A stretch of DNA of 64,000 nucleotides from Kineothrix sp. MB12-C1. GTDB lineage: Bacteria > Bacillota > Clostridia > Lachnospirales > Lachnospiraceae. The position numbers were made by a program, and so were the translations under genes. Under the pieces are notes generated by a model. The model saw only the letters and a list, made by a program, of their open reading frames with translations, did not search any database and was not told the origin of the DNA. The DNA is taken from contig NZ_CP132957.1 of assembly GCF_030863805.1 (NCBI RefSeq), forward strand, positions 1,054,001-1,118,000, in the 5' to 3' direction. This document shows, piece after piece, positions 35,364 through 41,304 of the stretch; the first letter of the stretch is position 1; each line of letters opens with the position of its first letter.

Positions 35364-35615
35364 ATGAATACTTATCCATACATAGAAATTGCGTGTACAC
35401 TAAAATACCGCATTCTAAATGGAAGCTACCAGCCCGGACAACAGCTTCCCTCTATCCGAATAATCGCCGCACAGGAAAAATGCAATACTGCAACAGCCCA
35501 GCATGCAACAATAAGCCCAATTTTATCAAAACAAACAGCCTTGACTCTGCCCTTGGGACACAGTTTATACTATCTTCAAGGGAGGAGAACTATATGGCAT
35601 TGCTTGTTCAGATAG
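35364..35615 (+). pseudogene. Truncated GntR-family regulator
   Basis: The first 45 or so residues (YIEIACTLKYRILNGSYQPG, then QQLPSIRIIAAQEKCNTATAQHA) match the winged helix of YtrA-type GntR regulators. After that the match is lost and the frame runs through a MerR-type promoter. About 75 further residues of such a protein are missing. It directly follows an ABC exporter, a normal place for this regulator type. Confidence 0.65.
35541..35571 (+). promoter_or_regulatory. MerR-type promoter with 19-bp spacer
   Basis: TTGACT (-35) and TATACT (-10) are 19 bp apart, the over-long spacing that MerR-family activators correct by DNA twisting. The spacer has an imperfect dyad (CTCTGCCC...GGGACACAG). 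A merR gene is last in the same transcription unit. Confidence 0.7.
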
Positions 35616-36975
35616 TAAGAAAAAGAGCCTTTTTATCATTTGCAACAGTTTGCACGAGTGTTTTGTTTGCTACAGTTACATTATGGTGGAATGCGCAGTT
35701 AAGCGATATTATTGATACCATTAGCGGAGGGGGCACTAGCGACAGAGACAATCGTATTAGCGATTATTGCGATGGTCGCCATGTGCCTTTCCAGTTTGCT
35801 GAAAACATATCTTTCCGGCTATGCTTGCGAGATTCTCACTCATGACTTGCGGATAGGTTATGCCCGATATTTTTCATTATTACCTATATCTGAAATTGAA
35901 CGACTCAATGCCGGAGAGCAGCTATCAAAACTACAAAACGAGATTGCAGATGTTTCGGGATACTTAAACAATAATTTATTTCAGTTGATAAATGATGGAA
36001 TAAGTTTCATTACTACGCTCGGCTGGCTGCTAATTCTGAATACAAAGCTGACACTGGCAGTAAACTTACCAGTGCTTGTCATTATGATATATGTATTCTA
36101 CTCCAGCAAAATCATTAGCAATGCCACTGAGCATAGTCAGCAAGCCAAAGGGCGAATGAATAAATACGCCGATACCCTACTGACATTATTTCCGATAATC
36201 CGGCTTTACGATGCAACGCAAATGATACTCAGGAATTACAATAACGAGGTTACCGAATGGGAACGTCAGACCATTCGAATTGAAAGATTGCGGGCACGGC
36301 TGATGTCATTATCAGGGTTTTTAAGTAATATTCCGCTTATGTTGTTGTTTCTCGTTGGCGGCGGCAAAAGCACCTTGTTAAAATTGGTAAGCGGGCTTTA
36401 CGATGTACCGGATGGCAGGATAATAATCGGTGAATCTCAGACATCCCCAGAAAGACGCAAGCATGTTGCCTGACGGACTCGATACTTTTGTCGGTGAGCG
36501 GGGCGGTCAAATTTCCGGCGGTCAGGCGCAGCGTATTGCCATTGCGCGGGCTATGCCGAGACTAAACAAGAAATCTCTTGAAGCCACGGCGAAAAACACG
36601 GGAGAATTAACCGCACTCATTACATGCACTGATGTTGCTTTGTTATATGGCGGACAGGATTACCTGATAAAGAGATTTGAACAGCGCAGTTTAGAATTAT
36701 TGCGTGCAAGAATGGAAATACACAAACGAAATGCGCTGGGCGCCGCTATTTTGCCATTATTCGGGCTTGGCGGCTATCTTGTGCTTTTGATGGCGAACAG
36801 CACATGGATTTCTAACAGGCTACTCACTTTTGGCGATTTAACCGCGGCGTTCCAATATCGAAACGGTGTTCTAATCGGCTCAATGATGCTGATAAATTGC
36901 ATAGTTTCAATACAGGCAAGTATGGCGGGGCTGCACCGCATTAACGAAATAATGGCAGAAAAGACGGAGGAATAA
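35594..36975 (+). pseudogene. Collapsed remains of two ABC half-exporters
   Basis: ATG at 35594 after a GGAGGAG site begins an ABC exporter transmembrane domain. The frame shifts at a run of five G (35729-35733), resumes to about 36350, then jumps directly to a Walker A fragment (GGGKSTLLKLVSGLYDVPDG), breaks again near 36470, continues with the ABC signature ISGGQAQRIAIARA, and then passes straight into the transmembrane domain of a second half-exporter that ends just before its ATPase domain should start. No intact nucleotide-binding domain remains, so no working transporter is made from this locus. Confidence 0.8.
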
Positions 36976-37459: not shown

Positions 37460-37687
37460 TTATTTCTAACACTACGGCAAGGGTGGATGGTCGAAAGGCA
37501 CCGCCCTTGCCGATTATTATAATTCCATCCAAACAACAGTCTACGGAGCGTGGATTGTTTACGAAATTCCTATCCATTATACTTAGATCATCGCAAATAA
37601 CATGGATGCAGAAAGGGAACTTTATTTTCAGAAGCATCATAAAAGCAATATGATGTAAAGATAATTAAGATTTAGGAGGTTTCGTAA

Positions 37688-38152
37688 ATGAACGAAAAAA
37701 TTGTAATGACAGCCGATAATTATGACCGTATCGATGGCAGGAATGCCTATCGGTCCGATATAAAAAAACTGACTTTGGGTACTCCTGTGCTTGCCGAAAA
37801 TCAGAACATGCAGATAGCCGCTCAAATATGGAAGGAAAACATCGATGGTCAGCAGGAAATATATATAGAACTTCCCATTCATCAAATATTTGATCTGATG
37901 ATATTTTTAAGCCGAACGCTCTTACACTTTCGCGAGGCCTATCGGCTTCCTCTGTTGTATGACCCGCAACAACCGACGATAGAGCGCATCGGTATACAGG
38001 GTGAGGCAATGCCTGTTACTATTTGTACCGACAATCCAAATATAAATGAGGATATTCAGGCATTTTCGCAAGCGCTGAATGACCTTGGCGAATTAAGCGG
38101 TGAACGCCTGCGCGTGCTTACACGTATTTTAGAAGAAATGGAGTATTATTAA
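37688..38152 (+). CDS. Conserved protein of unknown function paired with AAA/VWA gene
   Basis: 154 residues, no signal peptide or membrane segment. ATG with TAGGAGG. The N-terminus is MNEKIVMTADNYDRIDGRNA and the middle is mixed alpha/beta. It ends one base before the AAA/VWA gene, so the two proteins are almost certainly made together. I do not recognise a characterised family. It may be an adaptor or substrate of the ATPase. Confidence 0.75.
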   Translation: MNEKIVMTADNYDRIDGRNAYRSDIKKLTLGTPVLAENQNMQIAAQIWKENIDGQQEIYIELPIHQIFDLMIFLSRTLLHFREAYRLPLLYDPQQPTIERIGIQGEAMPVTICTDNPNINEDIQAFSQALNDLGELSGERLRVLTRILEEMEYY

Positions 38153-38153
38153 C

Positions 38154-40202
38154 ATGAAGAGTTCTACGGGTTTGTCCCCCTATCGACAACTTACGAAAGA
38201 AGAGGAAAAGCTTGTTTGGGAAAAGCCCCTCTCCCATATAGAAAGTGAGGCAGAGAATCGAATCTATGCCGAAGTAAAAAGAAACTGGCACAGCAAAGAA
38301 ATGAAAATTACGAATATTCTCCTGGAGGGGGATGCAGGGTCGGGAAAAACACAACTTGCAAAGGCACTTTCCGCTGATTTCGGATTACCATATACCAAAA
38401 TCACTTGCTTTGCAGATATGGATAAATCCGATGTGCTCGGCTCCATTCTGCCTGTTCTATCGGAAGATGGACATAGCGCCCAAGAGGTGTGCTATGAGTT
38501 CTATCCCTCCGAAATCGTTAATGCTTACGAAAACGGATGGTTATTGGAGATACAGGAACCCACTGTCATTCGGGACGCTGCCGTTCTAATGGCACTGAAC
38601 TCCGCGCTGGAACCGGATGGCAGCATCAATCTGCCTAACCGCATTGTTCACCGGCATCCTGATTTCATTGCCATAATTACTACAAATAGAGGATACAATG
38701 GCTGCCGGCCGTTGAACGAGGCATTGCGAGACCGAATCCATCACACCGAGAAAATGGACTTGCCCCCTAAGGCCGTTATGATGGAGAGGGCTATTGCCAA
38801 AACCGGATATTCTAAAGAAGACATTTTATCCTTGTTGGCAGATATGATTATCACTCTGGATGAAACAGCCAAGGCTAACGCCATTAAAGGTGTGGCAGGT
38901 ATGCGTTCTTATCTCTTTTGGGTAGATGCCGTGGCAAACGGAGCTTCACTTCGCTCCTCCATGTATTATAAGGTGATTTATAAAATTACGACCGCTCCGG
39001 ATGAAATCTCCATTTTAGAACAAGCTCTGCTTTCCAAAGGTCTGCTGGAACAACTAGAGCAAATAGAGGCAGCACAATCTCTCGGGCAGAAAAAACAGAG
39101 TTCGGATGCGATAGAATTACATTTATCCGAAGATGGGCATTTCTATGGAAATGAAGAAGAAATATCGGAAGATTCCGACGCCCTGCGTTTACGAAAATCA
39201 AAGGATAGCGACAGTCACTCCGATCAAATCTCCGACAGCACAATAGAGGAAACAAAAAGCAGCGATAACAACGAAAACGGCACTCCCCTTTATCACGAAT
39301 TAGATGGGAGAATCCCCACAGAACAGCAAAAACAAGAGTTCCGGAAAAAAATCAATCGAGAAGCACGCGAAAGTATAAAAAACAGCATACATCAGCAGAT
39401 AAAGCTGATTGTTCACCGCCCCGAAGTAACCGAGGAAAATCGAAAAACTTATCAAAAGCAAGCATCTGCGCTTGCTCCGATCATTCGCGAACTGATTCAG
39501 AAGACACGCCCTTTGTTGGAACATGAAACCGCCACCGAATTCTCATCGGGGCAGCTATATGGAACGAACTTCTGTGCCAATCGTATCGCAATGCAGGATT
39601 TCCGCTATTTTGCAAGGAAGCGGCCTCCGGAAGATGATCCATCCCTTGCTGTGGCTTTGCGCATAGACGAATCGGCCTCCATGTCGGCTTTCGGGCGGCT
39701 GGATGCAGCAAAACAGGCTGCGATCGCCCTCTATGAATTTTGCTATGGCTGTGGTATTCCCGTTATGATTTATGGCGATACTGCCGATCGTTCGCGCATG
39801 GAACAAATGTCCCTTTACTCCTATGTGGACTTCAATAGCAATAATCCTGACGATAAGTATTCTTTAGTCAGCATTCAAGGCAGAAGCAACAACCGCGATG
39901 GAATGGCAATCAGAATTATTGCAGACCGACTTATGACAGCCCCTGAGAAAACAAAATTATTTATAAGCATTAGCGATGGACAGCCCAAAGCGATGCCGGA
40001 CTACACAGGCGATTTGGCTGTGACCGATATGAAGAAGACTTTACAAGAATACCGCCGTAAAGATATACACTTTCTAGCCGCTGCCATCGGACAGGACAAG
40101 GAAATCATCAGCGATATTTATGGAAAAGAGAATGTATTGGACATCACCGACCTAAAGCAACTTCCGGCCCGATTGATTCAGATTATTGCAAGATATTTAT
40201 AA
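38154..40202 (+). CDS. MoxR-type AAA ATPase fused to a VWA domain
   Basis: 682 residues. Residues about 45-290 are an AAA+ domain of the MoxR/CobS kind: Walker A GDAGSGKT (59-66), a Walker B-like LLEIQEP, sensor ITTNRGYNG and arginine finger region LRDRIHH. An acidic, low-complexity linker (about 330-410) follows. Residues about 500-682 are a von Willebrand A domain with an intact MIDAS (DESASM at 505, and ISDGQP). This is the arrangement of chelatase-like and NorQ/NorD-like pairs but in a single chain. Probably an ATP-driven remodelling machine; target unknown. Confidence 0.85.
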   Translation: MKSSTGLSPYRQLTKEEEKLVWEKPLSHIESEAENRIYAEVKRNWHSKEMKITNILLEGDAGSGKTQLAKALSADFGLPYTKITCFADMDKSDVLGSILPVLSEDGHSAQEVCYEFYPSEIVNAYENGWLLEIQEPTVIRDAAVLMALNSALEPDGSINLPNRIVHRHPDFIAIITTNRGYNGCRPLNEALRDRIHHTEKMDLPPKAVMMERAIAKTGYSKEDILSLLADMIITLDETAKANAIKGVAGMRSYLFWVDAVANGASLRSSMYYKVIYKITTAPDEISILEQALLSKGLLEQLEQIEAAQSLGQKKQSSDAIELHLSEDGHFYGNEEEISEDSDALRLRKSKDSDSHSDQISDSTIEETKSSDNNENGTPLYHELDGRIPTEQQKQEFRKKINREARESIKNSIHQQIKLIVHRPEVTEENRKTYQKQASALAPIIRELIQKTRPLLEHETATEFSSGQLYGTNFCANRIAMQDFRYFARKRPPEDDPSLAVALRIDESASMSAFGRLDAAKQAAIALYEFCYGCGIPVMIYGDTADRSRMEQMSLYSYVDFNSNNPDDKYSLVSIQGRSNNRDGMAIRIIADRLMTAPEKTKLFISISDGQPKAMPDYTGDLAVTDMKKTLQEYRRKDIHFLAAAIGQDKEIISDIYGKENVLDITDLKQLPARLIQIIARYL

Positions 40203-40982: not shown

Positions 40983-41246
40983 TTATAAAGGATAATCGCA
41001 CACATCTTTAATTTCTTCTCTTTTTTCCAGCGACTCCGGAGGAAAAAGTATTGTTTGCCCTCCTAATAAATATACCCCTTTCTCGAAAGCAACTCTTGTA
41101 CGTATGCTGGAGTCAGGAAAAAACATCACCACAGTTTTCCCTGACAGAAAATGAGCGTATTCCCCACTGTGCAGTTCATCTGCGATATTGAATATCCTCA
41201 GGATATCATCCTTGCTGTAATCTCTTAGCCTCACCAAACTCTTCAT
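40983..41246 (-). pseudogene. Truncated ornithine/aspartate-type carbamoyltransferase
   Basis: 87 residues from the ATG at 41246 (GGGAGAA site). It matches the carbamoyl-phosphate domain: SLVRLRDYSKDDILRIFNIA, then SSIRTR (the STRTR carbamoyl-phosphate loop) and FEKGVYLLGGQTILFPPES. A full enzyme is about 310-340 residues; here the frame stops after DVCDYPL and no continuation is visible downstream, so this is a 3'-deleted gene. Confidence 0.75.
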
Positions 41247-41304
41247 ATCGATTTCTCCCTTATATAGCCGGATTTTAAACCCCATTCTCATACAGTCTCA
41301 TTGG

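Follow-up and report, generated by a model that had tools for sequence, protein, structure and literature searches.

A fused MoxR/VWA motor gene, its DUF6530 partner and a scattered gene set with a putative shared operator in Bacillota

What might keep two closely spaced, apparently functional genes in a stretch of chromosome where their neighbors have decayed, and with what, if anything, do they work? The window considered here comprises 64,000 nucleotides of Kineothrix sp. MB12-C1 (NZ_CP132957.1, positions 1,054,001 to 1,118,000), and the pair in question encodes a 154-residue protein and, after a gap of a single base, a 682-residue protein. The original prediction had these lengths, the coordinates and the spacing right, and its placing of the pair amid pseudogenes was equally sound. 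On one flank there is an ABC-exporter relic spread over several reading frames (35.4-37.0 kb) with a GntR fragment at 35364, and on the other a truncated carbamoyltransferase (40983-41291). The larger gene has diverged from its nearest homologues by 48% at third codon positions and by 9-16% at first and second positions, and is thus under purifying selection. Features of the window are collected in Table 1.

Table 1. Positions of the gene pair, its control elements, the motifs of the fusion protein and the adjoining relics in the window
Feature	Position	Strand	Basis
Upstream relics (GntR fragment and deleted/rejoined ABC-exporter pieces), outside the module	35364..36975	+	ORFs, Pfam
17-bp operator TCTACGGAGCGTGGATT, imperfect palindrome TCTACG-GAG-CGTRGA, exact copy	37540..37556	+	Motif search
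-10 box TATACT, 21 nt past the operator	37578..37583	+	Spacing conserved across sites
Ribosome-binding site aggagg, before the DUF6530 ORF	37674..37679	+	Sequence
DUF6530 protein gene (PF20140), 154 aa	37688..38152	+	ORF, Pfam, structure prediction
AAA+/VWA fusion gene, 682 aa	38154..40202	+	ORF, Pfam, alignment
Walker A GDAGSGKT, residues 59-66	38328..38351	+	Alignment
Walker B end L-L-E, residues 130-132	38541..38549	+	Alignment, against CbbQ YLDE
Variable charged linker, AAA+ to VWA, about residues 300-400	39051..39353	+	Alignment
MIDAS D-E-S-A-S, residues 505-509 (D505-x-S-x-S)	39666..39680	+	Alignment
MIDAS second aspartate D608 in S-D-G, residues 607-609	39972..39980	+	Alignment

Judged by its sequence, the 682-residue protein is an intact single-chain fusion of the NorQ/NorD kind. 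Residues 54-194 score above the Pfam cut-off as an AAA_5 domain (E 1.6e-11), and the C-terminal VWA domain is akin to those of CobT and NorD (CobT_C, E 0.001; NorD chain 9qhd, E 2.4e-5). With DxSxS and the second aspartate of the MIDAS also in place, the proposal of a MoxR-like ATPase and a MIDAS-bearing VWA domain in one chain is borne out. The homologues, too, are mostly one chain of about 670-790 residues, and they conserve the Walker A motif GDAGSGKT, the sensor-1 asparagine (TTN) and the catalytic glutamate (LLE). DxSxS is present in 78 of 78 sequences, and a single one lacks [ST]DG.P; the MIDAS threonine position is occupied by asparagine. In the Walker B motif the Mg-binding aspartate has given way to leucine and the catalytic glutamate is kept (WLLE in the window protein against YLDE in CbbQ). 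Either LLE or ILE stands in all complete homologues examined, and since the aspartate is missing throughout, the ATPase rate may be low.

NorQ/NorD and CbbQ/CbbO share with this protein the NorQ-type AAA+ core, the MIDAS with DxSxS and second aspartate, and a flexible linker before the VWA domain. They are, however, two-chain systems, whereas the window protein is one chain, carries leucine for the Walker B aspartate, has a dedicated DUF6530 partner and is not located with nor, cbb or other metalloenzyme genes. The CobS/CobT cobaltochelatase has the CobT_C-like VWA domain in common with it, but there are no cobalamin genes nearby and scores fall far below the NCBIfam cobaltochelatase cut-offs. 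Midasin (Mdn1/Rea1) likewise joins AAA+ and a C-terminal MIDAS VWA domain on one chain. It has six AAA modules against one in the window protein, which has no known link to ribosome assembly; the comparison is one of architecture only.

The 154-residue partner had been called unknown. It is indeed uncharacterised, but its family can be assigned: it belongs to Pfam PF20140, DUF6530 (E 2.2e-51, 174.3 bits against a gathering score of 23.7, residues 3-153), and our literature search found no paper mentioning that family. The predicted structure is a beta4-alpha unit followed by C-terminal helices; no confident known fold was found among the structure matches, which barely covered the part beyond residue 85. 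Of 398 genomes drawn from across the phylum, 64 contain DUF6530. Scanning named genomes gave 243 relatives, 80 of which were taken as loci, and by clustering DUF6530 is the most constant neighbor of the AAA/VWA gene in that set (66 of 80). The family also occurs without the motor, and a GIY-YIG-like gene then adjoins it at 33 of 59 loci. Many sampled genomes carry such highly conserved stand-alone copies, often with the GIY-YIG-like gene (L002-L031 and other loci).

Is the pair the whole unit? The original prediction took it to be, and this has to be corrected: in most Clostridia it forms part of a four-gene regulon. The clostridial gene order is a GIY-YIG-like gene (117 aa), DUF6530, AAA/VWA and a regulator of roughly 200 aa, in which an XRE helix-turn-helix is fused to a desulfoferrodoxin-like domain. 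The set is conserved, widely transferred and new to the literature searched, in which no paper on it was found. The product of gene one has the GIY-YIG fold: a profile search matched it to I-TevI at E 4e-9, and so did the structural model, with a TM of 0.75 on the target. In the alignment the catalytic tyrosine of GIY is retained in 1 of 43 sequences, as is the catalytic arginine (1 of 43); the nuclease catalytic residues have been lost. The regulator shares with desulfoferrodoxin/superoxide reductase the Cys4 of site I, found in 26 of 26 sequences, and the His-His-Cys of site II, where two histidines and the cysteine are invariant. It differs in its fusion to the XRE domain and in the other histidine ligands, present in 10 and 21 of the 26 sequences. 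Because site II is incomplete in this respect, the regulator probably acts as a sensor rather than as an enzyme. It may sense iron or oxygen/superoxide through the invariant Cys4, although, with site II incomplete, the signal itself is a guess.

The complete operon was found at 8 loci in 7 of the sampled genomes and at most clostridial loci of the 80-locus set. Among the 398 genomes, about ten have a clear AAA/VWA homologue and eight a close copy (one of them, G386, broken). Close copies of the GIY-YIG-like and regulator genes occur in 8 of the 398, the same eight, where "close" means at least 50% identity for gene one and 60% for gene four, a cut picked after the scores had been seen. The exception to this co-occurrence, G151, has a broken regulator and also keeps a VWA remnant. 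The four genes need not be adjacent. No remnant of gene one or gene four lies beside the pair in the window; the single close GIY-YIG-like copy of this genome is at 797 kb and the regulator at 2372 kb, neither of them near the pair. Similarly, twenty further genomes include ten clostridial ones without a local gene one and/or gene four, and in nine of the ten whatever is missing locally is present at another site. In the tenth (G402), gene one survives solely as a broken copy.

What, then, would hold such scattered genes together? An exact copy of the 17-bp palindrome TCTACGGAGCGTGGATT, absent from the earlier description of this locus, stands ahead of the DUF6530 gene. Allowing up to 3 mismatches, a motif search of the window returned this one match against 0.16 expected. 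Most upstream regions of 34 operons and scattered genes contain TCTACGGAGCGTRGATT, which is found with no more than one mismatch at about 47 of the 80 loci. A TAWWNT -10 box was recognised in 35 of 62 distinct operator sites, 21 nt downstream in 33 of them and 20 nt in two, and conservation of the -10 columns extends to the full set of 62. The 21-nt spacing puts the center of the palindrome near -43, where activators typically sit. A weak -35 follows directly after the operator, and for this reason the regulator is probably an activator.

Scanning 52 whole genomes with at most one mismatch gave 33 operator sites in 23 genomes and none in the other 29, and all 23 hold the module or its genes one and four. 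A congener (G432, L204:4522-5727) has the GIY-YIG-like gene, regulator and operator without DUF6530 and the motor. In the window genome there are two operator sites only, the one at 37540 and one before the 797-kb GIY-YIG-like gene, so that at least three of its four genes, the pair and gene one, are predicted to be tied by one 17-bp operator. The sharing of the operator by the pair and the scattered gene one, with two sites in the genome, argues for a regulon and not a decayed remnant. The regulator gene of this genome has no operator and is placed behind a GGDEF gene.

Which protein would bind the operator? Sites are found before lone regulator genes (G416, G003, G404 and G407), and at L115 and L121, whose regulators share only about 39% identity, the site has changed too (TCTACGATAAGTAGG and TCTACGAATCGTAGG). 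Both observations point to the XRE regulator as the likely candidate. The operator is absent from the regulator-less Enterococcus/Paenibacillus-type loci of the 80-locus set, save for a two-mismatch site in L119, and was not found at stand-alone DUF6530 loci. Its core also turns up in five published papers whose titles and abstracts indicate that they are unrelated.

The four genes of the window genome differ in ancestry. In the AAA/VWA tree the window protein groups with L073-L078 (99/97), whereas in the regulator tree the window copy is outside the clade of that type and placed in another. The window DUF6530 and motor are nearest to Peptococcaceae/Syntrophomonadaceae-type copies, and the GIY-YIG-like gene is apart again. 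Within the genus, a close motor gene is found in 4 of 16 genomes, the window's included, the other three being at 63-69% identity; the tree is at odds with taxonomy. Given these differing ancestries and the patchy motor within the genus, the set was most likely assembled from several transfers.

In Kineothrix alysoides (L211:2644-4400) an IS110 transposase separates the operator from DUF6530, whose start resembles, by eye, that of the GIY-YIG-like protein (MDIKRKHELLNEWKN), an apparent deletion scar; an intact GIY-YIG-like copy with its own operator is present elsewhere (L210). A scar of gene one between operator and DUF6530 was also sought in the window and dropped, the alignments being no better than shuffles.

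Enterococcus and most Paenibacillus keep the DUF6530-AAA/VWA pair without genes one and four and with a different operator, so those two genes are not essential parts everywhere. Many of these loci have TTAGTAAATTACTAA-like boxes, mostly in arrays, directly upstream of the pair or of a lone motor, and the rest of each 20-kb locus is almost free of them. They are found at L120, L126, L127, L129, L130, L136, L137, L139-L143, L145, L146, L148, L151 and L152; searches at L119, L123, L125, L138, L144, L147, L149 and L150 did not find the box. In Enterococcus, the shikimate operon, a LytR gene and a DegV gene precede the pair, whose chromosomal place is fixed.

Taken as a whole, we consider it an even call that the two genes encode motor and partner at the core of a dedicated remodelling machine, which is run as one regulon. 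Analogy offers a plausible mechanism. In NorQD, an AAA+ hexamer is combined with a VWA protein that grips the target by its MIDAS (PMC13036017, PMC9976466), and the kinship of the fusion protein to MoxR/VWA pairs suggests that it should work in the same way. Its AAA+ part would form a hexameric ring, and the VWA domain of the same chain would grip the target by the MIDAS and transmit the ATP-driven force. As the constant companion of the motor, DUF6530 is the leading candidate for the role of target or adaptor, and together with the GIY-YIG-like protein it may constitute the target complex or its adaptor. The regulator would read the iron or oxygen/superoxide state through its Cys4 site, bind the operator and, at about -43, probably activate the operon; its desulfoferrodoxin-like domain suggests iron or oxygen stress as the signal. 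The fuller version remains tentative, and we lean against it somewhat: an iron- or oxygen-responsive regulon of anaerobic Bacillota, in which the single-chain MoxR/VWA motor remodels a complex of DUF6530 and the pseudo-GIY-YIG protein under one operator, despite scattered and differently descended genes.

Such a regulon would matter in several ways. To our knowledge, the targets of MoxR/VWA chaperones are mostly unknown; a fused, Walker-B-altered branch is added to them here, and DUF6530 can now be linked to a partner motor, with a candidate regulator and a putative binding site. Shared operator and co-occurrence together expose a functional set that gene neighborhood misses in the window genome.

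The best-placed alternative is that the motor is a metal-cofactor insertase of the NorQD or CobST kind, serving one metalloenzyme encoded elsewhere with DUF6530 as adaptor. Metal insertion by a MoxR/VWA pair is known for NorQD (PMC13036017, PMC9976466), and both the sequence kinship to NorQ/CbbQ and NorD/CobT and the iron-site domain of the regulator are consistent with it. However, no metalloenzyme is a recurrent neighbor in Enterococcus or at 53 clostridial loci. The conserved association with one metal-cofactor enzyme, which the original prediction had named as the mark of an ordinary insertase, did not appear. This makes an insertase role less likely, with room left for an unlinked target. 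Neither of the two close operator sites in the window genome is at a metalloenzyme, and in many genomes DUF6530 and the GIY-YIG-like gene do without the motor (the 33 of 59 loci above). On balance we regard an insertase as unlikely.

A conflict or anti-phage module, with the GIY-YIG-like protein and DUF6530 acting on invading nucleic acid, we consider decidedly improbable. MoxR-vWA ternary conflict systems, with VMAP, iSTAND, FtsH or beta-propeller components, are a known class (PMC7159879), and they share a MoxR-type AAA+ and a vWA with further linked components. The module here differs in being fused, in its distribution in Bacillota and in its constant partners: no effectors are exchanged around the core, and either the four components or the pair is constant throughout the loci. 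The suggestion of a mobile conflict module stood as to mobility, given the patchy presence in the genus and a tree at odds with taxonomy, but the association with phages, plasmids and defence did not. The pair gives only weak PADLOC matches, which fall in the generic AAA region, and the defence genes among 143 neighbors are scattered single matches apart from a few generic-looking mad2/mad3 ones; the tally is unremarkable, and a defence-island reading was set aside. Searches of phages and plasmids found module copies to be nearly absent. The phage evidence consisted only of partial matches, a few IMG/VR contigs and three 'Listeria phage' records that are short and lack annotation, and a phage origin was rejected. 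The fixed synteny of the core in Enterococcus argues against a defence role as well, and gene one, for all its GIY-YIG fold, has lost the catalytic residues.

Quite as improbable, in our estimation, is a nucleic-acid or ribosome remodeller, in which a PUR/PC4-like DUF6530 and the GIY-YIG-like protein bind single-stranded nucleic acid, to be displaced under stress by a midasin-like motor: the one-chain AAA+ and C-terminal VWA, the nucleic-acid-type fold of the partner and the beta4-alpha topology of the DUF6530 model, which fits PUR/PC4, would suit it, but those folds appear among weak, non-significant matches (Foldseek E 0.4 or worse; Z about 3), and the homology, prompted by topology and by eye, gained no support from Foldseek, VIA-align or the hhalign profile comparison with PC4 and was kept as a rival.

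Returning to the proposed regulon, two further kinds of locus may be mentioned. Decaying copies of the module are seen at L172 (G386), where the motor is in three pieces without DUF6530, and at L173 (G151), with the VWA remnant and broken regulator. Finally, in some genomes the operator also stands before an MFS exporter gene adjoining the module (L085:1069, L106:7805, L109:647 and L205:55), and this exporter is predicted to be a further member of the regulon, L205, at a contig edge, being judged by promoter likeness.
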